This document shows, piece by piece, positions 13,688 through 53,588 of a stretch of DNA of 64,000 nucleotides. The DNA is taken from the NCBI GenBank assembly GCA_028820655.1, contig JAPPIK010000011.1, positions 83,732 to 147,731 of the forward strand. The letters are read 5' to 3'. Every line of letters starts with the position of its first letter. Position 1 is the first letter of the stretch. Source of the stretch: Candidatus Poribacteria bacterium (lineage in GTDB: Bacteria; Poribacteria; WGA-4E; JAJDTR01). Under the pieces are notes generated by a model that searched no databases, had not been told where the DNA came from, and worked only from the letters and a program-made list of their open reading frames with translations. The position numbers were made by a program, and so were the translations under genes.

Positions 13688-16600
13688 CTAGTTAATGGCA
13701 TGCGCTACGATGACCAAGTCTAAGACATTGGTCACGCCGTCACCGTTGACATCGTGCTTGTCAGTACCCAAAGCGTTCGCCACGATGACCAAGTCCAAGA
13801 TATTAACAATACCGTCCCCGTTAACGTCCGCAGGATTAGCCGGCGTTATGCGGAGGAACATATCGCCGTCAAGGTCGGGAACGGCGTGCTGGGTGTGTCG
13901 GAGTCCGCTTCGTACGGATTGCACACGCTCAGGCAATGTGATAACGTGAGGCTTGCCGCTCCTATTATACACCGCCCAGCCGTTGACGAATTCGCGGATG
14001 AATAAACCGGGAATGTCTTCATATGGTTGGGCTTTGGGGCCGATGGGACGCCCTAAATCAACATCCCAGAAAGGATACCAAATATGCTCATGACCAGATT
14101 CCCACGGGAACTCATCAACTCGGGCATCTGGTATAGGGATACCCCCTCTTCCGGTATTATACAGCACGAAACCGTCAGACAGGTTGAGGCTCATAGTGGT
14201 AAAGACGCGCATCCAGCGCCGGTTATCCGGGCTGTCCGGCGGTTCTGTAGGAATCCCCCATCCCTCTAAGCAGTTTATCTGCGGAGATCTTAAGTTTTCC
14301 TCCGACCAAATGAGGGTGTCCTCAATCTCTTGAAGTCCGGTATACGTATATCCGCCGGGGTTATCGCTGTAGTGATTGTCCGTGAGGGTCTCCATGAAGG
14401 TGCCGTTGACATACTCTGCAAACGGCATCGGCTTCTTTCTATTCGAATTGACCAGTATCAGAAAGTCTTCGCGAACTTGTGATCGAACAGTTCGGAAAAT
14501 GTTGAGCACCGCCCGGGTAATTTCATCAGCGGTAACCGAGAAAAGATGCCGGTCCACAAATTGGTTTCCGTCCTTACCAATTCCGTCTATGAAGACTCCA
14601 TCGTAGAGGCCGCATCGCGCAATGTCAACAATCCGCTTTATAAGTGCCTCTTGAACTTCAGGCTCGTAGAATTTAATGACATATTCATTGTAACTATTTA
14701 TCACTCTCTGTCCTTGGGCATCTCTAAGCCAAAAATCAGAATCTGGTGGAAAAGATTGGGAATCTGGACGGACTGAATGGTACTGCAGCCAGATATGACG
14801 CAAAAAGACCATGTTCGGATTTAAATCGAGTTGCCTCTGGCGAGTTTCACGTGCCACTGCAAGATCGCCGGCGAGCGAAGTCGCAATGCCATGAGTTGAT
14901 GTGGTTGGGTCGGTAATCCACTCCAACGTGAAATTTGGGGAAAAGTACAAGTCATGAAGGCTTTTTCGCTGTTCCCGTGTGAGGTAATCTAGCCCGATAA
15001 CGCCCTCCCACGCTTGGAAGATAGAAGGAAAACCCCGACTTACTAACCGTTCTCTGACCAAGGGCGGCAGCGGTTCAATACCACACACCTCATCATAACG
15101 AAAATCGGCGAGATTGAGTCCCTGTAGTGGACCAATATCCGTAACTGTATTGTTGTGTATCCAAAGTTCCATGAGATTGACGAGGTTCGCAAGGGGACTG
15201 AAGTCGACAATTTGATTACGTTCTACATGCAAGACGGTAAGATTAATCAATTCAGCCAATGGACTGATGTCCGAAATTTGATTGCCCCCTAAGACAATCC
15301 ATCTCAGACTTTTCAAGTTTCGGAGCGGACTCAAATCAACTATTCGGCATCCCCAGAGATTCAATCCTTCCAGTTTCGTAAGATGGGCCAAGGGACCAAT
15401 ATCTACGATTGGATTGTAGTATAACTCAAGAGATTGGAGGTTGGTCGCGTATTCTAACCCCGTTAGGTCGGTGATGCCGCGATCCCCGCCGCCGTCCAGT
15501 CTAGTTAATCGCCGCATCTGACCTTGAGTGAGGGGTACCGAATCGGGAAGGGACAACGCTTCTCGGATCAGCAACCTTAAGTTTGTATCGGGCAGTTCGA
15601 CGATGAGGTTGAACCCTTCACCTATTTCAATGTCCAACTCTACGCCTTCAAGTTCGAAAAGGGGACCAAAGTCGTGGAAGGGATTGTCAGCAAGGTAAAG
15701 TTTCTGGAGATTCTTTAATTTGGTCAGCGGGGTGATGTCAGAGATTAGATTTACTGAGATATCCAAAGAAGTGAGGTTCGTTAATTCCGACAAGGGACTG
15801 ATGTCGGAGACTTCGTTATACCCTAAGACAATCCGGTTCAGATTCTTCAAGTTTCGGAGCGGACTCAAATCAACAATGCGGCACCCCCAGAGATTTAATC
15901 TTTCTAGTATTGTAAGTTGGGCTAAAGGGCTGATATCCGCGATTGGGTTGTGGTATAACTCAAGGGATTTGAGGTTGGTGGCATATTCCAGGCCTGTTAG
16001 GTCGGTGATTCCACGGTTACCACCGGCATCTAGTTGTGTTAATCGCTGCATATGTCCTTGTATAAGAGGCACCGCCTCAGGCAGAGCCTGCGCTTCTCGA
16101 ATCAACAGTCTTAAGTTCGGGTCGGGTATTTCCACGACGAGGTTGAATCCCTCACTTATTTCAATGTCCAGTTCTACCCCTTCAAGTTCAAAAAGAGGAC
16201 TAAAGTCGTGGAAGGGGTTGTCGGCAAGGTAAAGTTTCTGGAGATTCTTTAATTTGGTCAGCGGGGTGATGTCCGTAATCGCATTTCTATTGAGCCACAA
16301 TTCTTCTAACCGGGTGAGATTGGCAAGGGGACTGATGTCGTGAATCTGGTTTGTGTCCGAGCGCAAGCGAGTAAGTTGTGTTAAATTTGCGAGTATTGTA
16401 ATGTCTTCAACCGAATTTTGGTCTATCCAGAGATGCTGAAGGTTAGCAAGGTTTGCAAAGGGGCTGATGTCAGAGATTTGATTTGATGAGAGATTTAGTG
16501 AAGTGAGGTTCGTTAATTCAGACAGCGGACCGATGTCGGAGATTTGGTTGTTCCCCAATACAATCCAACTCAGATTCTTCAAGTTACGGAGTGGCCTCAA

Positions 16601-16942
16601 ATCGACGATACGGCACCCCCACAAGTTGAAACCTGTCATATTGGTCATTTTAGCCAAAGGACCAATATCTTCGATAGGATTGTGATAGAGGTTCAGGTTT
16701 ACGAGGTTGGTCGCGTATTCTAGCCCGGAGAGATTCGTGATGCCTCGGTTGCCTCCCGCGTCGAGGTCGCGTAGTTGGAGCATGTGCCCGCGCTCAATTT
16801 GAACATCGTTCGGAAGTTGAAGCGTTTCTCTGACGAGCTGATCTAAGTTAGAGTCAGGGATAGTAACTACTTGTGCTGCGGCAGCGTTGACGAGCAATGT
16901 TAAAGCGACGCACAAAGCGTGGAATCGAGTGAATCTTGTCAT
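13688..16942 (-). CDS. Exported LRR / glycoside-hydrolase-like / dockerin protein
   Basis: 1084 residues from the ATG at 16942, which lies 8 bases after GGAGGA; the GTG at 16960 overlaps that site. A signal peptide (MTRFTRFHALCVALTLLVNA) leads into three tandem leucine-rich-repeat blocks, each opening with a near-identical module: PDxNLxxLIRExLxLP, QGxMxRLxxLDAGGxRGI, LTGLEYATNL. Blocks run about 27-265, 266-440 and 441-620. The middle third (about 640-1020) looks like a (beta/alpha)8 putative glycosidase (FQAWEGVIGLDYLTREQR; DGVFIDGIGKDGNQF), close to hypothetical glycosyl-hydrolase families such as GHL15. The last 49 residues are a dockerin type I pair (ADVNGDGIVNILDLVIVA, then HDVNGDGVTNVLDLVIVAH) with Ca-binding DxNxDGxxNxxDL loops. 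It is probably cell-surface or complex-bound. Confidence 0.85.
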   Translation of the reverse strand: MTRFTRFHALCVALTLLVNAAAAQVVTIPDSNLDQLVRETLQLPNDVQIERGHMLQLRDLDAGGNRGITNLSGLEYATNLVNLNLYHNPIEDIGPLAKMTNMTGFNLWGCRIVDLRPLRNLKNLSWIVLGNNQISDIGPLSELTNLTSLNLSSNQISDISPFANLANLQHLWIDQNSVEDITILANLTQLTRLRSDTNQIHDISPLANLTRLEELWLNRNAITDITPLTKLKNLQKLYLADNPFHDFSPLFELEGVELDIEISEGFNLVVEIPDPNLRLLIREAQALPEAVPLIQGHMQRLTQLDAGGNRGITDLTGLEYATNLKSLELYHNPIADISPLAQLTILERLNLWGCRIVDLSPLRNLKNLNRIVLGYNEVSDISPLSELTNLTSLDISVNLISDITPLTKLKNLQKLYLADNPFHDFGPLFELEGVELDIEIGEGFNLIVELPDTNLRLLIREALSLPDSVPLTQGQMRRLTRLDGGGDRGITDLTGLEYATNLQSLELYYNPIVDIGPLAHLTKLEGLNLWGCRIVDLSPLRNLKSLRWIVLGGNQISDISPLAELINLTVLHVERNQIVDFSPLANLVNLMELWIHNNTVTDIGPLQGLNLADFRYDEVCGIEPLPPLVRERLVSRGFPSIFQAWEGVIGLDYLTREQRKSLHDLYFSPNFTLEWITDPTTSTHGIATSLAGDLAVARETRQRQLDLNPNMVFLRHIWLQYHSVRPDSQSFPPDSDFWLRDAQGQRVINSYNEYVIKFYEPEVQEALIKRIVDIARCGLYDGVFIDGIGKDGNQFVDRHLFSVTADEITRAVLNIFRTVRSQVREDFLILVNSNRKKPMPFAEYVNGTFMETLTDNHYSDNPGGYTYTGLQEIEDTLIWSEENLRSPQINCLEGWGIPTEPPDSPDNRRWMRVFTTMSLNLSDGFVLYNTGRGGIPIPDARVDEFPWESGHEHIWYPFWDVDLGRPIGPKAQPYEDIPGLFIREFVNGWAVYNRSGKPHVITLPERVQSVRSGLRHTQHAVPDLDGDMFLRITPANPADVNGDGIVNILDLVIVANALGTDKHDVNGDGVTNVLDLVIVAHAIN

Positions 16943-17019
16943 CTGGTAATTCCTCCACACTCAGTTTCCGGTCGATTGAACGTTCCCTACGGTGCTAGTC
17001 ACATTATGGCGGAATTAAA

Positions 17020-48312: not shown

Positions 48313-49173
48313 ATGAGGTCTTTTGTAGCTATACTGGCTATTGCCAGTTTGATGATGGTTTTTCCGCTCGTTGGTATGACGGCAAGCCCTGTGGGGTACT
48401 GGACATTCAACGATGCGAACAACCCCGCCAAAGATGATACGGGCGCAGGACGCGACGGTAGGCCAAGCGGCCCCGTGCTTCCGGTGGAAAGCGACGCTCC
48501 GGTTCCCAATCCGGGATTTGCGATGTCGTTTGTGCAGGAGCCCGGTAACGCGATTATTATCGACGATTCGGAAGGTCTGCACCCAAATGATATGGCGACG
48601 TTGATGTGTTGGGTCAACGCGGATGATGCGGCGCCGACGCAGTTTGCCGCCGGGATTCCATATGACGACGAACCGGAATGGGACAATCCATGGATCGGAC
48701 TCCAGATTGGCGTTCGCGGCGGCGGTATGGCGAACTGGATCGCTCTTGATGGCAGGGCGCCTTCTCCTGAAGGGCGCGAAGGCGGGGGGCCGGATGGCGA
48801 TGACGCCGATTGGGAATACAATACAGCAGATGGCACGGTTCTCGGTGGAGAGTGGCAGCACATCTGCTTGGTTATCGATGGAACTGATGCCATTACTTAT
48901 ATCAACGGCGAGGTGGTTCAGCCAGAGTTGGGTCAAGGACGCGGCGGAAAAATCGCGTTTAACGGTAATCCCCTGTTCCTCATCGGCGAGCGATCCGCAA
49001 CCGCACCTGGTGAACCGTTTGGCGGTTTGATTGACGAGGTCGCCATTTACCATGCGGCGCTTTCGCAGGATGAGGTAAAGGATGTCATGAATAACGGCGC
49101 GGACGTTTCAGGTACGGCTGTCGAGTCCGTGGGGAAATTGTCTACCACTTGGGGTAGAATCAAGGACCGTTAA
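48313..49173 (+). CDS. Exported LamG-domain protein with C-terminal TTWGxIK tail (copy 1)
   Basis: 286 residues from the ATG at 48313, after ATGGAGGTATCT; the ATG at 48301 overlaps the ribosome site. Signal peptide MRSFVAILAIASLMMVFPLV then GMTASP. A single LamG/concanavalin-like sandwich fills residues about 26-265: VGYWTFNDANNPAKDDTGAG at the start, WVNADDAAPTQF, WQHICLVIDGTDAITYINGE, and FGGLIDEVAIYHAALSQDEV with the closing strand and helix. It is followed by SVGKLSTTWGRIKDR. Highly similar to the next gene (tandem duplication). It probably binds carbohydrate or protein at the surface. The TTWGRIK end is shared with the four following exported proteins. Confidence 0.87.
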   Translation: MRSFVAILAIASLMMVFPLVGMTASPVGYWTFNDANNPAKDDTGAGRDGRPSGPVLPVESDAPVPNPGFAMSFVQEPGNAIIIDDSEGLHPNDMATLMCWVNADDAAPTQFAAGIPYDDEPEWDNPWIGLQIGVRGGGMANWIALDGRAPSPEGREGGGPDGDDADWEYNTADGTVLGGEWQHICLVIDGTDAITYINGEVVQPELGQGRGGKIAFNGNPLFLIGERSATAPGEPFGGLIDEVAIYHAALSQDEVKDVMNNGADVSGTAVESVGKLSTTWGRIKDR

Positions 49174-49201
49174 CCGTTAACCAGCAACACCATCAATTCA
49201 A

Positions 49202-49232
49202 CGGAGGAACGGGATGTTCTCCCGTTCCTCCG
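49202..49232 (+). terminator. 13-bp perfect hairpin between the LamG genes
   Basis: CGGAGGAACGGGA (49202-49214), loop TGTTC, TCCCGTTCCTCCG (49220-49232). No T-run follows. It includes a GGAGG and the ATG at 49214, burying both in the stem/loop. Confidence 0.5.
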
Positions 49233-49285
49233 CTGTCCCACCTTTCCGCTCATTTCAACATACGTTGTTTTCTTGGAACAATCGA

Positions 49286-50161
49286 ATGAAAAAGCGAATG
49301 CCTAAATCGATATCTTACATATATATATCCGTATTTTTGGTAGTCAGTCTATCGATGTCGATGCTGTTGCCCGTGTTGAGCATCGCACAGAGTCCCAGGA
49401 ATCTTGTTGCCTACTGGCGGTTTAACGGCGATTACAAAGATGCCACCGGAAATGGGCATGACGGCAGAAAAAAGGGCAATGTCAAGTTTGTTAAGAGTAA
49501 AGCACCGGTTCCCGATGCCGGCGAGGCTGTACAGTTCGCAATGCAAGCCGGGAATGCGGTTGTGATTCGGAACTCGGATGATTATCGTCTGACAGACGAA
49601 TTGTCATTGATGGCGTGGGTCAACCCGGATGACGCGGCGCCTACACAGTTCTGCTGCGGAGTGCCTTACGATGCAGGCGGTAATTGGGACAATCCGTGGG
49701 TCGGTCACCAGATTGGTGTACGAAACGGACAGATGGCAACTTGGCTTACCTTGGATGGAAAAGCGCCTGCCCCTGGTGGACGACAGGGTGGCGGTCCAGA
49801 CGGGGATGATGCTGATTGGGAATACGATGCGGGCCAGGTCATTGCGGGCGAATGGAATCATATTGCTTTCATTTTCACTGGAAGTGCGGCGATTTCATAC
49901 GTGAACGGAGAGGAGGTAGCTAATCACAGGGACCGGAAGGGCAAAATTGGATTTGACGGCAAACCGAACTTTGTGATCGGCGAGCGGTCCGTGTCGGCAC
50001 CGGGTGAGCCGTTCGGTGGCATGATAGACGAGGTAGCACTATTTGATGTGGCGCTGACGCGAACTCAACTGAGAAACTTTATGAACAACAGTATTAAGTT
50101 GAGCGTTGCCCCTGGCGGGAAAACTACAACAACATGGGGCACAATCAAGTCACGATACTAG
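49286..50161 (+). CDS. Exported LamG-domain protein with C-terminal TTWGxIK tail (copy 2)
   Basis: 291 residues from the ATG at 49286, which gives a good signal peptide (KRMPKSISYIYISVFLVVSL, then SMSMLLPVLSIAQS). A frame to the ATG at 49214 exists but that codon sits in the hairpin loop. LamG core as in copy 1, with near-identical blocks: LMAWVNPDDAAPTQFCCGVP, GGGPDGDDADWEY, SAAISYVNGEEV and PFGGMIDEVALFDVALT. C-terminus GGKTTTTWGTIKSRY. A Cys pair (FCCGVPY) replaces FAAGIPY of copy 1. It is a recent tandem paralog. Confidence 0.87.
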   Translation: MKKRMPKSISYIYISVFLVVSLSMSMLLPVLSIAQSPRNLVAYWRFNGDYKDATGNGHDGRKKGNVKFVKSKAPVPDAGEAVQFAMQAGNAVVIRNSDDYRLTDELSLMAWVNPDDAAPTQFCCGVPYDAGGNWDNPWVGHQIGVRNGQMATWLTLDGKAPAPGGRQGGGPDGDDADWEYDAGQVIAGEWNHIAFIFTGSAAISYVNGEEVANHRDRKGKIGFDGKPNFVIGERSVSAPGEPFGGMIDEVALFDVALTRTQLRNFMNNSIKLSVAPGGKTTTTWGTIKSRY

Positions 50162-50287
50162 ACGCGTGCACAAGTTCACGGCATTCCCAAATTTATTTTC
50201 TGATTTGGTGTCGCTGGACGACATAATCGAATATGCACTCAAAGCCGCGCGAGTTTTTAGGAATTAAGATATGAAAAGGGGGGAAAC

Positions 50288-51355
50288 ATGCAAATCTTTA
50301 AGACACGTTTAGGTATGAATGTTGTTCTTGGCGTCTTCTTGATGAGTACTCTACTCATGGTAGCGGGCGGGATTGCACAGGAACCTCCGGACGTCGCGAA
50401 AATCCTTTTCGAGTCGGACCGAAAGGTAAAAAAGAATAAAGACATCTATATCATGAACGCCGACGGGACCGACGTAGAGAGAATTACCGACCACGCCAAA
50501 GCCGACATATCACCTACGTGGTCACCGGACGGCACTCGGTTCGCCATGGCAGCGGTGCGGGATGATTCGTGGGAGCATATCCGTGTTCTGAGCGCGCTTG
50601 ACAGGGAAGAGGACATGATAACAATCACGAATGGGACTCGAGATTTGACACCCGCTTGGTCGCCGAACGGAAATTGGATTGCTTGTGTACACGCGAATGT
50701 CCAAGATGGTTGGAATTTTGATGTCTGGATTGTTCGGTTGCAAGATGAGAAAAAGAAGATGGACGCGTATAAGTTTGGCGAACTTGGGAACGGCGACGAG
50801 ACAGATAGTTTCCGACTCACGAAACATTCCGCCCAAGACGAAAGCCCTGCGTGGTCCGCTGACGGGTTGCAGATTGCATGGTCAAGCAACCGCACTGGCA
50901 ACTACGATATTTTTGTTATGGACAGAACTGGCGGCAACAAGAAAAACCTTACGAATCATCCCAAAGATGACAAAGGTCCGGATTGGCAGCCGCCGTGGGG
51001 TGAAAAAATTGTTTTTGCCTCCGACCGTGACGGTGATAGCGAGATTTATACCATGGATCCGAATGGAGGAAACGTCAAACAGTTGACTGCCAATGTGTTC
51101 GTCTGGGATGGTCAGGCTACTTGGTCGCCGAACGGTAAAGAGATTGCCTTCGCCACGAATCGTGACAGAAACAATGAAATCTATGTCATGGATGCCAATG
51201 GCAACAATCTGGTAAATCTCACCAACAACAAAGGTTCTGATCAGAGCCCTGCGTGGTTCGACCCCAAAATAGCGTTCTCGGTTTCTCCCAAGACAAAACG
51301 CACTGTCACTTGGGGAGCAATTAAGCAGTCCGGGCGAAAACGTGCAGAGAAATAA
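50288..51355 (+). CDS. Exported TolB-like PD40 propeller with TWGxIK tail (copy 1)
   Basis: 355 residues; ATG after AAAGGGGGGAAAC. Signal peptide MNVVLGVFLMSTLLMVAGGI then AQEP. Six or so PD40 blades, each with the xSPxWSPDGxxIA pattern: DISPTWSPDGTRFAM, LTPAWSPNGNWIACV, ESPAWSADGLQIAWSSN, DIFVMDRTGGNKKNLTNHP and ATWSPNGKEIAFATNRDR, with SDRDGDSEIYTMD in between. This is the C-terminal domain of TolB as a stand-alone surface propeller. The end KTKRTVTWGAIKQSGRKR carries the shared tail. Paralog of the next gene. Confidence 0.88.
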   Translation: MQIFKTRLGMNVVLGVFLMSTLLMVAGGIAQEPPDVAKILFESDRKVKKNKDIYIMNADGTDVERITDHAKADISPTWSPDGTRFAMAAVRDDSWEHIRVLSALDREEDMITITNGTRDLTPAWSPNGNWIACVHANVQDGWNFDVWIVRLQDEKKKMDAYKFGELGNGDETDSFRLTKHSAQDESPAWSADGLQIAWSSNRTGNYDIFVMDRTGGNKKNLTNHPKDDKGPDWQPPWGEKIVFASDRDGDSEIYTMDPNGGNVKQLTANVFVWDGQATWSPNGKEIAFATNRDRNNEIYVMDANGNNLVNLTNNKGSDQSPAWFDPKIAFSVSPKTKRTVTWGAIKQSGRKRAEK

Positions 51356-51444
51356 AGAGTGAATTCTGTTGAATTACTGAATCATTGATATTGCTAGAAA
51401 CGGACGGTATTTGTTTTAATAGCCTTTATTATTTGTACAACCAA

Positions 51445-51484
51445 AAAAGAAACCGAGTTTCTTACTAGAAACTCGGTTTCTTTT
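51445..51484. terminator. Bidirectional intrinsic terminator
   Basis: AAAAGAAACCGAGTTTCT (51445-51462), loop TACT, AGAAACTCGGTTTCTTTT (51467-51484). An 18-bp stem with A-run and T-run on opposite sides, 90 bases after the PD40 gene stop. The inner sequence recurs singly at 40318. Confidence 0.85.
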
Positions 51485-51690
51485 ATATTGGCGTGCTGAA
51501 CTTATGGAGTTTTGTTGTTTACCAAGTGGTCAAGTCGTGTGTGGTCGTATGCGGAAATGCTCTCGTATGTTTGTAAATGTCTTGCAATTTCCCGTAAGGT
51601 GAAAGGCTCGTGCGCTAATTTACTTTCGCCGACAATTTGATTTTTTCATTTCACGAATTAACTCTCCATTGATGGCAAAGGAGGTCAATA

Positions 51691-52755
51691 ATGCTAGGTA
51701 ATGGCAAGCGGCTATGTGTTGTTCTATGCGGCGCCTTTCTAGCGAGTATCCTGCTAGGAGTGGTAAGTGCGATTGCAGTGGAACCGCCGGAGACTGCGCG
51801 CATCGTTTTTGTGTCGGATAGGAGGGCGAAGAAGAATAAGGATATCTATGCGATAGACCCTGACGGACAGAATGTGGAGCGAATAACGAAGCACAGTAAA
51901 CAGGATATAACACCTTCCTGGTCTCGGGATGGGACCAAAATCCTATTTGCTTCCGATAGGGAATCACATTTTGAGAGAGTCTACATCATGGACAACGATG
52001 GAGAGAACGTTAAAGTGGTCACGGCCGGTAATCGGGATCTCACTCCGGCGTGGTCTCCGAATGAGAATTGGCTTGCCGTCGTCCACGCACACGGCGCCGA
52101 CAACTGGAATTTTGATGTTTGGGTTGTCCGCCTTGTCGAGGACAGAAAGAAGAATATCGAGCCGTTTCCATTCGCCAATCTGGGAGACGGCGATGGGGAA
52201 ACCAGTTTTCGACTGACTTTTCACTCGGCGCAGGATGAGAGCCCAGCATGGTCGCCGGATGGAAAACGGATAGCGTGGTCGAGCAATCGAACCGGCAATT
52301 ACGACATCTTTGTGATGGACAGGAATGGGGACAAAAAAACGAATCTTACAAAAACTCCCATGAACGAGAAAAAACCGGGATGGCAGCCGCCACTAGGCAT
52401 TAAGATAGTTTTTGCGTCCGACCGGGACGGCGATAGCGAGATCTTTGTCATGGATCGAGATGGCAGCAATGTCAAGCAGTTGACCAAGAATATCTTCGTC
52501 TGGGACGGTCACCCGACGTGGTCGCCAAATGGCAAGGAGATAGCTTTTTCCTCGAATCGAGCCAGAAACAATGAAATCTTTATCATGGATGCCAATGGCA
52601 ACAATCCTAGGAACGTCACGAATGATAAAGGGTCCGATACGTACCCGTCGTGGTTCGATCCCAAGATTGCGTTTTCGGTTGATTCAAAGGCGAAGCGGAC
52701 GGTTACATGGGGTGAGATTAAGCAGTCGGGACGCAAATCGTCCGCACGTCGGTGA
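51691..52755 (+). CDS. Exported TolB-like PD40 propeller with TWGxIK tail (copy 2)
   Basis: 354 residues; ATG after AAAGGAGGTCAATA. Signal peptide LCVVLCGAFLASILLGVVSA. PD40 blades as in copy 1: DITPSWSRDGTKILFASDRE, LTPAWSPNENWLAVVHAHG, ESPAWSPDGKRIAWSSN, DIFVMDRNGDKKTNLTK, SDRDGDSEIFVMDRDGSNVK and HPTWSPNGKEIAFSSNR. Ends KAKRTVTWGEIKQSGRKSS. About 60-65% identical to copy 1 by eye. It has its own ribosome site and a terminator before it, so it may be separately transcribed from copy 1, and its stop overlaps or abuts the next gene. Confidence 0.88.
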   Translation: MLGNGKRLCVVLCGAFLASILLGVVSAIAVEPPETARIVFVSDRRAKKNKDIYAIDPDGQNVERITKHSKQDITPSWSRDGTKILFASDRESHFERVYIMDNDGENVKVVTAGNRDLTPAWSPNENWLAVVHAHGADNWNFDVWVVRLVEDRKKNIEPFPFANLGDGDGETSFRLTFHSAQDESPAWSPDGKRIAWSSNRTGNYDIFVMDRNGDKKTNLTKTPMNEKKPGWQPPLGIKIVFASDRDGDSEIFVMDRDGSNVKQLTKNIFVWDGHPTWSPNGKEIAFSSNRARNNEIFIMDANGNNPRNVTNDKGSDTYPSWFDPKIAFSVDSKAKRTVTWGEIKQSGRKSSARR

Positions 52756-52805
52756 GTTTGGATGATTCATCTGCAAGTCGCGAAAGAAAATCGAGGTGGT
52801 CGAGT

Positions 52806-53588
52806 GTGACCGTGAAAAGCGGATGCTATCTTTGGTTTCTCATGGTTGTGGTTGTGGTCGCCACCCCAGCAAGCGTGCACGCCAAACTCCTTGACGGTCT
52901 TGTTGCCTATTGGGCGCTAGATGAAGGGCGCGGGGATGTGATGGGAGACTCCGTGGGTGAGAACCCCGGCGAAATCGAAGTGGACAGAGGCGTGTGGACC
53001 GATGATGCCCAAATCGGAAAGGCATTTGAACTTAAGGGGCAATCGCTCATAACCGTGAAAAATTCAAGAGTTCTGGACAAACTGCCTAACGGGTTCACCA
53101 TCGCGCACTGGATGAAACCAACCAAAGGCGGCGCAATCATGGACAAATCGGGCGGTGACGGCACGAGAATCCAATGGTATCTACTTGGCGATAAGCGCCA
53201 TCATTGGGGTGTTGGAGGGGCTTGGGGTTTTTCGGATGGCAAACCGATTGGGGCGTTTGGGAAGTGGTATCATGTGGCATGGACACATGAACCTAATGAA
53301 GCGAGTGTCGTGTATCGGGACGGCAAGGAAGTTGGCAACAAGATCCTCGGGGAAGTTCCAGTCACCGGAAAGCCGATGCACTTCGGTAACCGTCTGCCTT
53401 GGGAGGGCAGATCGGAATGGTTCAACGGCACGCTGGACGAGATAGGATTCTGGAATCGACCATTGTCGGAAGCCGAAGTCCAAGAGGTTATGGAAAACGG
53501 TATAGGTTCGCTTCTCGCCGTATCCACACGTGATAAAGTAACCACCACGTGGGGCGCCATTAAGGGATGGCGTACAGGTATCAATTAG
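52806..53588 (+). CDS. Exported LamG-domain protein with TTWGxIK tail (copy 3)
   Basis: 260 residues from the GTG at 52806, six bases after GAGGTGG, which gives a compact signal peptide (CYLWFLMVVVVVATPASVHA). A GTG at 52752 overlapping the previous stop (GTGA) is a possible coupled start. LamG core: LVAYWALDEGRGDVMGDSVG, FTIAHWMKPTKGGAIMDKSG, KWYHVAWTHEPNEASVVYRD and FNGTLDEIGFWNRPLSEAEV. The end is TRDKVTTTWGAIKGWRTGIN. It is more distant from copies 1 and 2, so the tail is conserved beyond recent duplication. Confidence 0.85.
   Translation: MTVKSGCYLWFLMVVVVVATPASVHAKLLDGLVAYWALDEGRGDVMGDSVGENPGEIEVDRGVWTDDAQIGKAFELKGQSLITVKNSRVLDKLPNGFTIAHWMKPTKGGAIMDKSGGDGTRIQWYLLGDKRHHWGVGGAWGFSDGKPIGAFGKWYHVAWTHEPNEASVVYRDGKEVGNKILGEVPVTGKPMHFGNRLPWEGRSEWFNGTLDEIGFWNRPLSEAEVQEVMENGIGSLLAVSTRDKVTTTWGAIKGWRTGIN

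Follow-up and report, generated by a model that had tools for sequence, protein, structure and literature searches.

The Five-Gene Locus

The window, i.e., the whole analysed stretch of 64,000 nucleotides from a Candidatus Poribacteria genome, contains at positions 48313–53588 five adjacent genes, each encoding an exported protein with a common C-terminal tail (Table 1). All five open reading frames (ORFs) and tails reported in a preliminary description of this DNA were found where it had placed them. The proteins end in STTWGRIKDR, TTTWGTIKSRY, TVTWGAIKQSGRKRAEK, TVTWGEIKQSGRKSSARR, and TTTWGAIKGWRTGIN; both PD40 protein ends extend 4–5 residues further than first read. A hydrophobic, signal-peptide-like N-terminus is present in 5/5 proteins, in agreement with the signal peptides first noted on all of them. 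The folds differ as described, with Pfam assigning Laminin_G_3 to three of the proteins and PD40 to two, and the domain matches stop well before the tail. In the profile search of the five proteins against Pfam and NCBIfam, no model covers the tail. Common descent of the whole proteins had been dismissed as an explanation of the tail. This is correct across the folds, but the three LamG proteins are paralogues of one another, as are the two PD40 proteins, and the claim was too strong in that form.

Table 1. Exported proteins and C-terminal tails of the five-gene locus, in window coordinates.
Feature	Position	Strand	Basis and remarks
Exported LamG (Laminin_G_3) protein 1, 286 aa	48313..49173	+	ORF and Pfam
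C-terminal tail 1, VESVGKLSTTWGRIKDR	49120..49170	+	Translation
Exported LamG protein 2, 291 aa	49286..50161	+	ATG at 49286; ORF open from 49214; Pfam
C-terminal tail 2, VAPGGKTTTTWGTIKSRY	50105..50158	+	Translation
Exported PD40/TolB-like beta-propeller protein 1, 355 aa	50288..51355	+	ORF and Pfam
C-terminal tail 3, VSPKTKRTVTWGAIKQSGRKRAEK	51281..51352	+	Translation
Exported PD40/TolB-like beta-propeller protein 2, 354 aa	51691..52755	+	ORF and Pfam
C-terminal tail 4, VDSKAKRTVTWGEIKQSGRKSSARR	52678..52752	+	AlphaFold pLDDT about 40–45, low confidence
Exported LamG protein 3, 276 aa from ATG	52758..53588	+	Possible GTG start at 52752; Pfam
C-terminal tail 5, VSTRDKVTTTWGAIKGWRTGIN	53520..53585	+	AlphaFold: low-confidence linker precedes the tail

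Motif Definition and Distribution in the Host Genome

In the host genome (Candidatus Poribacteria, 5.88 Mb in 61 contigs), T-W-G-x-[ILMV]-K was sought by means of a degenerate DNA pattern, and the same pattern reversed was used as a control. This strict motif gave 93 matches against 5 for the control, which makes it frequent in the genome-wide search that the preliminary description had proposed. Its placement is C-terminal rather than mid-sequence, since 85 of the 92 distinct matches that were fetched and translated in frame lie at most 16 residues from the stop codon. Among the exceptions is a set of WD40 proteins with a type A sorting domain after the motif. A wider pattern, V-x9-W-[GA]-x-[ILMV]-K, yielded 195 matches against 5.

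When refined, the motif reads V-x-P-x-[GDS]-K-L-[TA]-T-T-W-G-x-[IL]-K and mostly lies 1–7 residues (at most 10) before the C-terminus. The conserved positions are V at -10, P at -8, K at -5, L at -4, and T at -2/-1, followed by W, G, any residue, I/L, and K. Among 85 genomic examples, which were collected without using the upstream residues, V occupies -10 in 79, K occupies -5 in 66, and P occupies -8 in 51. The TTWGxIK unit first proposed is indeed present in the tails, but the conserved unit is longer and reaches the V at -10. Some neighbouring proteins at first scored as tail-less carry the variants TSWG, TLWG, TMWG, TIWG, or TTWS. At the invariant positions, Thr is encoded by all four of its codons, Gly by four, and Lys by both. 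Such free variation of synonymous codons at invariant residues means that the constraint acts on the peptide and not on a DNA element.

The tail genes are strongly clustered: in 398 kb of the same genome picked away from the tail clusters, only 2 of 238 ORFs have the tail, and each of the two has a signal peptide. Beta-propeller genes with the tail form large tandem arrays, of the PD40 type on contigs C7 and C8 and of the BNR-like type on C61 of this genome (G000).

Carrier Proteins

A signal-peptide-like start was found in 318 of 322 tail proteins (at least 200 aa) and in 304 of 743 other ORFs from all fetched loci; the call is a simple hydrophobicity/charge rule by which membrane proteins are also caught. 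The tail is almost confined to proteins with signal peptides, an enrichment which the preliminary description had suggested looking for. A lipobox Cys follows the signal peptide in 1/318 tail proteins and in 24/304 of the other ORFs that look exported, which speaks against lipoprotein sorting of the carriers. The Fisher p-values, about 2e-87 for the signal peptide and 3e-7 for the lipobox, overstate the case, as related sequences are not independent.

The unrelated folds seen in the window recur among the carriers at large, which are LamG, PD40/TolB-like, BNR, and Kelch proteins. Laminin_G_3 was assigned to 38/87 and PD40 to 26/87 carriers, Sortilin/BNR to 6–8, and Kelch domains also occur. 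The carriers are mostly small single-domain binding folds with a median length of 274 aa. Among homologues, switching of the tag was seen in one weak pair only.

One LamG and one PD40 carrier were modelled with AlphaFold, and each model consists of a confident domain followed by a low-confidence linker and tail. The Pfam domain boundaries agree with both models in that neither the LamG nor the propeller domain includes the tail, by which the tail as the last strand of the fold, raised earlier as a possible objection, was ruled out. The conformation of the tail itself is described differently by two measures. AlphaFold draws a low-confidence helix, and the hydrophobic periodicity favours a strand (0.40 vs 0.27 in shuffled sequences at 160 degrees, with no difference at 100).

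It could be argued that the tail is an artefact of structure or descent, such as a last strand, a segment hitchhiking within gene families, or a DNA repeat at gene ends. Many carriers are tandem paralogues, e.g., in the clusters on contigs C8, C61, and C15, as this reading would expect. The tail is, however, common to unrelated folds, has low confidence outside the domain in both AlphaFold models, and keeps its T and W invariant where the mean column identity is 12%. A DNA-level repeat overlapping the gene ends is ruled out by the variable synonymous codons. An artefact of this kind is hardly credible.

Spread across Poribacteria

The five genes of the window are a small sample of a tail class that extends through the phylum. 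The motif was found in 85/85 Poribacteria genomes searched, with 4 to 103 matches per genome against 0–7 for the control. Roughly a hundred exported proteins of unrelated folds carry this tail of about 15 residues in each genome.

In a scan with the long pattern, 79 of 80 stretches among the matches listed bear Poribacteria titles, and the only other title among them is a metagenome-assembled genome labelled ‘Planctomycetota’ (G085). This genome has background counts (13 matches against 9 in the control). Its true-looking tails are few and lie on contigs C151 and C156; of these contigs, the one that was fetched (L176) is 4.4 kb long. Contamination is the likely source of these tails. In 59 genomes of the phylum to which G085 is assigned, tail matches are not above the control (about 200 vs 216, summed). 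For the matches listed and these 59 genomes, occurrence of the tail outside Poribacteria was rejected on the basis of the background-level counts and the likely contamination of G085.

Relation to Known C-Terminal Signals

The preliminary description knew of no named sorting signal of this form, and none has come to light: the tag matches no Pfam or NCBIfam model, the papers searched contain neither a name for the motif nor a description of it. In this respect the tag appears to be new. It belongs neither to the TIGR04183 family nor to the PEP-CTERM family, whose defining features it lacks.

The PEP-CTERM and MYXO-CTERM systems resemble the tail in that dozens of proteins per genome share one C-terminal signature with a basic end, and the phylum-wide use of the tail is like that of MYXO-CTERM. 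A processing tag of the exosortase or sortase type (PEP-CTERM, LPXTG, and similar) would agree with the C-terminal site and with the few basic residues that come after the signature motif; the net charge of the last 12 residues is +2.1 in tail proteins vs +0.1 in other ORFs. Against such a tag, and unlike PEP-CTERM, no transmembrane segment occurs in any tail seen, as first reported for the five proteins, and the motif is mostly followed by only 1–7 residues, many of them polar or basic. The exosortase family PF09721 is missing from 19 of 20 Poribacteria genomes, including that of the window, in a search whose positive control was detected. With the exosortase in 1/20 genomes and tails free of a transmembrane helix, the exosortase/PEP-CTERM route is largely refuted, and processing tags of this type as a whole are very improbable. 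The single genome with the exosortase is G016 (contigs C414 and C401), where it would reflect either acquisition or contamination of the bin.

The type A C-terminal domain (CTD; TIGR04183/PF18962) of the type IX secretion system (T9SS) is like the tail in several ways. Both stand at the C-terminus of Sec-exported proteins of unrelated folds, both have a Lys near the terminus, the genomes with the tail also encode T9SS homologues, and a tail-like motif can directly precede such a domain. The combination of a Sec signal peptide and a C-terminal signal, a feature of T9SS substrates, is found in 318/322 carriers by the hydrophobicity/charge rule. A second feature, machinery in the same genome, is also found, as almost every genome examined encodes SprA-like, PorU, and PorV-family proteins. 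In contrast to the type A CTD, which is an Ig-like sandwich of about 70–100 residues, the tail has about 15–25 residues, no predicted fold, and low pLDDT. No above-cut-off match to TIGR04183 or PF18962 was obtained in the five window proteins, and the single TIGR04183 echo (E 0.08) lies inside a propeller. The known type IX signals are folded domains, of about 100 aa for type A and 43–55 aa for the short Prevotella form (PMC12618676, PMC11969387), and a signal of about 15 residues would therefore be unprecedented. The short CTDs of Prevotella intermedia are an example of reduced C-terminal signals that are handled by the type IX system (PMC11969387). They carry motifs B, D (GxY), and E with three predicted strands (PMC11969387); the tail is far shorter, and its V-x-P-x-x-K-L-x-T-T-W-G-x-I-K motif differs from theirs. 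Despite these differences, the tail may function like a type IX signal.

Type IX Secretion Homologues in Poribacteria

A single-cell study of 2014 described WD40 proteins of Poribacteria that bear type A sorting domains, stated that it had not found structural genes of the Por system, and did not settle the route of secretion (PMC3909097). In the present analysis, an SprA-like protein (TIGR04189) of about 2150 residues was detected in 37/37 Poribacteria genomes examined, in a fragmentary form in a few incomplete ones. The copy of the host genome (L222:8702-15166, G000:C1) has an E-value of 4.5e-44 and 150 bits against a cut-off of 200; the SprA-like proteins mostly score below the curated cut-off, and phmmer of the protein against the PDB gave no match. 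PorU of the host genome is above its curated cut-off (423 vs 420 bits), and the PorU catalytic region was found in nearly all divergent genomes searched. A PorV-family gene lies immediately 3′ of PorU as a conserved pair in 13 genomes (L233:7804-15234 on G000:C4; L234–L245). The PorU of this pair itself ends in a type A-like sorting domain, and a second PorU-like protein, lacking a PorV neighbour, is encoded at L246 (G000:C5). PorV-family matches number about 14–24 per genome in the host genome and 19 relatives, and the paralogues could possibly form a set of specialised shuttles. Some PorV-family genes adjoin large type A-tagged proteins (L251, L252). A search for the motor component GldM, which had no positive control, returned no match.

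Judged by these homologues, much of a type IX system is present in Poribacteria in a divergent form, contrary to the 2014 report. Some papers confine the system to another phylum (e.g., PMC7906972, PMC5445135). On the same profile matches, it extends beyond that phylum.

Tail-Like Motifs Upstream of Type A Sorting Domains

In several cargo proteins, the tail-like motif occurs together with a type A domain. It stands directly before the domain in L073 (AVDPAALRLTTLGDVKTTILHQ, followed by NFPNPF), in L253 (VEVIGKRQALLGKIKQNALFQ, followed by NYPNPF) and likewise L254, and in L155 (VETPTNSLPVTLGNLKRGLLLQ, followed by NYPNPF). Seven cargo proteins of the WD40 type have T-x-W-[GA]-x-[IV]-K about 30 residues upstream of the type A domain. 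In tandem WD40 proteins (L050 on G000:C22 and L067 on G000:C45), the same motif comes after the last propeller blade and ahead of the type A domain. The majority of the type A domains examined are not preceded by a tail-like motif. The placement upstream of type A domains suggests that tail and domain belong to one pathway; the fusion of two independent tags is a possible explanation as well. A further likeness concerns the almost invariant Lys close to the C-terminus of the tail. In type A signals, a near-C-terminal Lys is almost invariant and functionally important, and its contacts vary (PMC10994853). By analogy, we infer a parallel between the two lysines.

The same arrangement bears on a narrower reading, in which the motif belongs only to the attachment part of the type IX route. 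It would form a junction for the sortase, through which the mature C-terminus is fixed to the surface, and the bare-tail proteins would be delivered by other means. PorU is known to cut near the cargo/CTD junction (PMC11969387). The motif lies at this junction in L073, L253, L254, and L155, close to the known cut site, and PorU homologues occur in nearly all genomes examined. Such a restricted role is nonetheless improbable, as the motif is present on a minority of the type A domains examined and the bare-tail proteins would still require an exit route.

A Candidate Sorting or Attachment Signal

The tail is probably a short, membrane-free C-terminal sorting or attachment signal that is used across Poribacteria and read outside the cytoplasm. 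The likeness to C-terminal sorting tags that was first remarked upon is the best reading, and the searches proposed along with it came out in its favour; the sorting role and the reader stand as candidates. According to this proposal, the carriers would cross the inner membrane by Sec and lose the signal peptide. The tail, V-x-P-x-x-K-L-x-T-T-W-G-x-[IL]-K, would be displayed at the end of a flexible linker that follows the completed beta-rich domain. It would then be read by a receptor in the periplasm or outer membrane, which would carry or fix the protein to the cell surface. The candidates for this reader are an SprA-type pore, PorV-type shuttles, and a PorU-type sortase, and the tail could act as a miniature substitute for, or partner of, the type A sorting domain of about 90 residues.

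A co-occurring translocase or protease had been suggested as the thing to look for, and the outcome is divided, with the exosortase missing from 19 of 20 genomes as described above and the SprA, PorU, and PorV homologues present as candidates. Provided that the tail has a sorting role, this type IX-like apparatus would be its most likely reader, an assignment made with a little less than even confidence. The more specific proposal, a divergent type IX system whose main cargo class uses a linear signal of about 15 residues read by one or more PorV-family shuttles, is tentative. Consistent linkage of tail genes to the SprA or PorU–PorV loci was searched for and was not seen. Since the tail and SprA occur together in all genomes tested, their co-occurrence cannot discriminate.

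A docking peptide is the other way in which such a tail could work. The proteins would be exported by another route, and the tail would then bind a common receptor or scaffold of the surface or matrix, as dockerins bind cohesins, whereby many lectin-like and propeller proteins would be assembled in one place. This would suit a short, linear motif behind a flexible linker on carriers that are mostly small binding domains, and dockerin-like C-termini are likewise in use in this genome (window 13688-16960). Dockerin-type modules are, like the tail, C-terminal additions on many exported proteins; the tail differs in being much shorter and free of calcium-binding repeats, and no cohesin-like or other receptor was identified. 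Docking alone also fits poorly with those cargo proteins in which the tail-like motif immediately precedes a T9SS sorting domain, an arrangement which links the motif to secretion. Docking is an unlikely explanation, though one to be reckoned with.

The sorting or attachment signal would be of consequence for a phylum that is uncultured and many members of which are sponge symbionts. The tag marks a large share of their exported lectin-like and propeller proteins, which may plausibly make contact with the host or with polysaccharides, and through it the surface proteome of Poribacteria becomes predictable from sequence. Together with the SprA, PorV, and PorU homologues, it makes the question of the surface route left in 2014 directly testable. 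If it is true that a peptide of 15 residues suffices for the type IX system, current views of cargo recognition would need revision. Exported proteins of this genome also bear a C-terminal module of a third kind, noted in the window itself, where the gene at 13688-16960 encodes a leucine-rich-repeat protein with a dockerin-like C-terminus.
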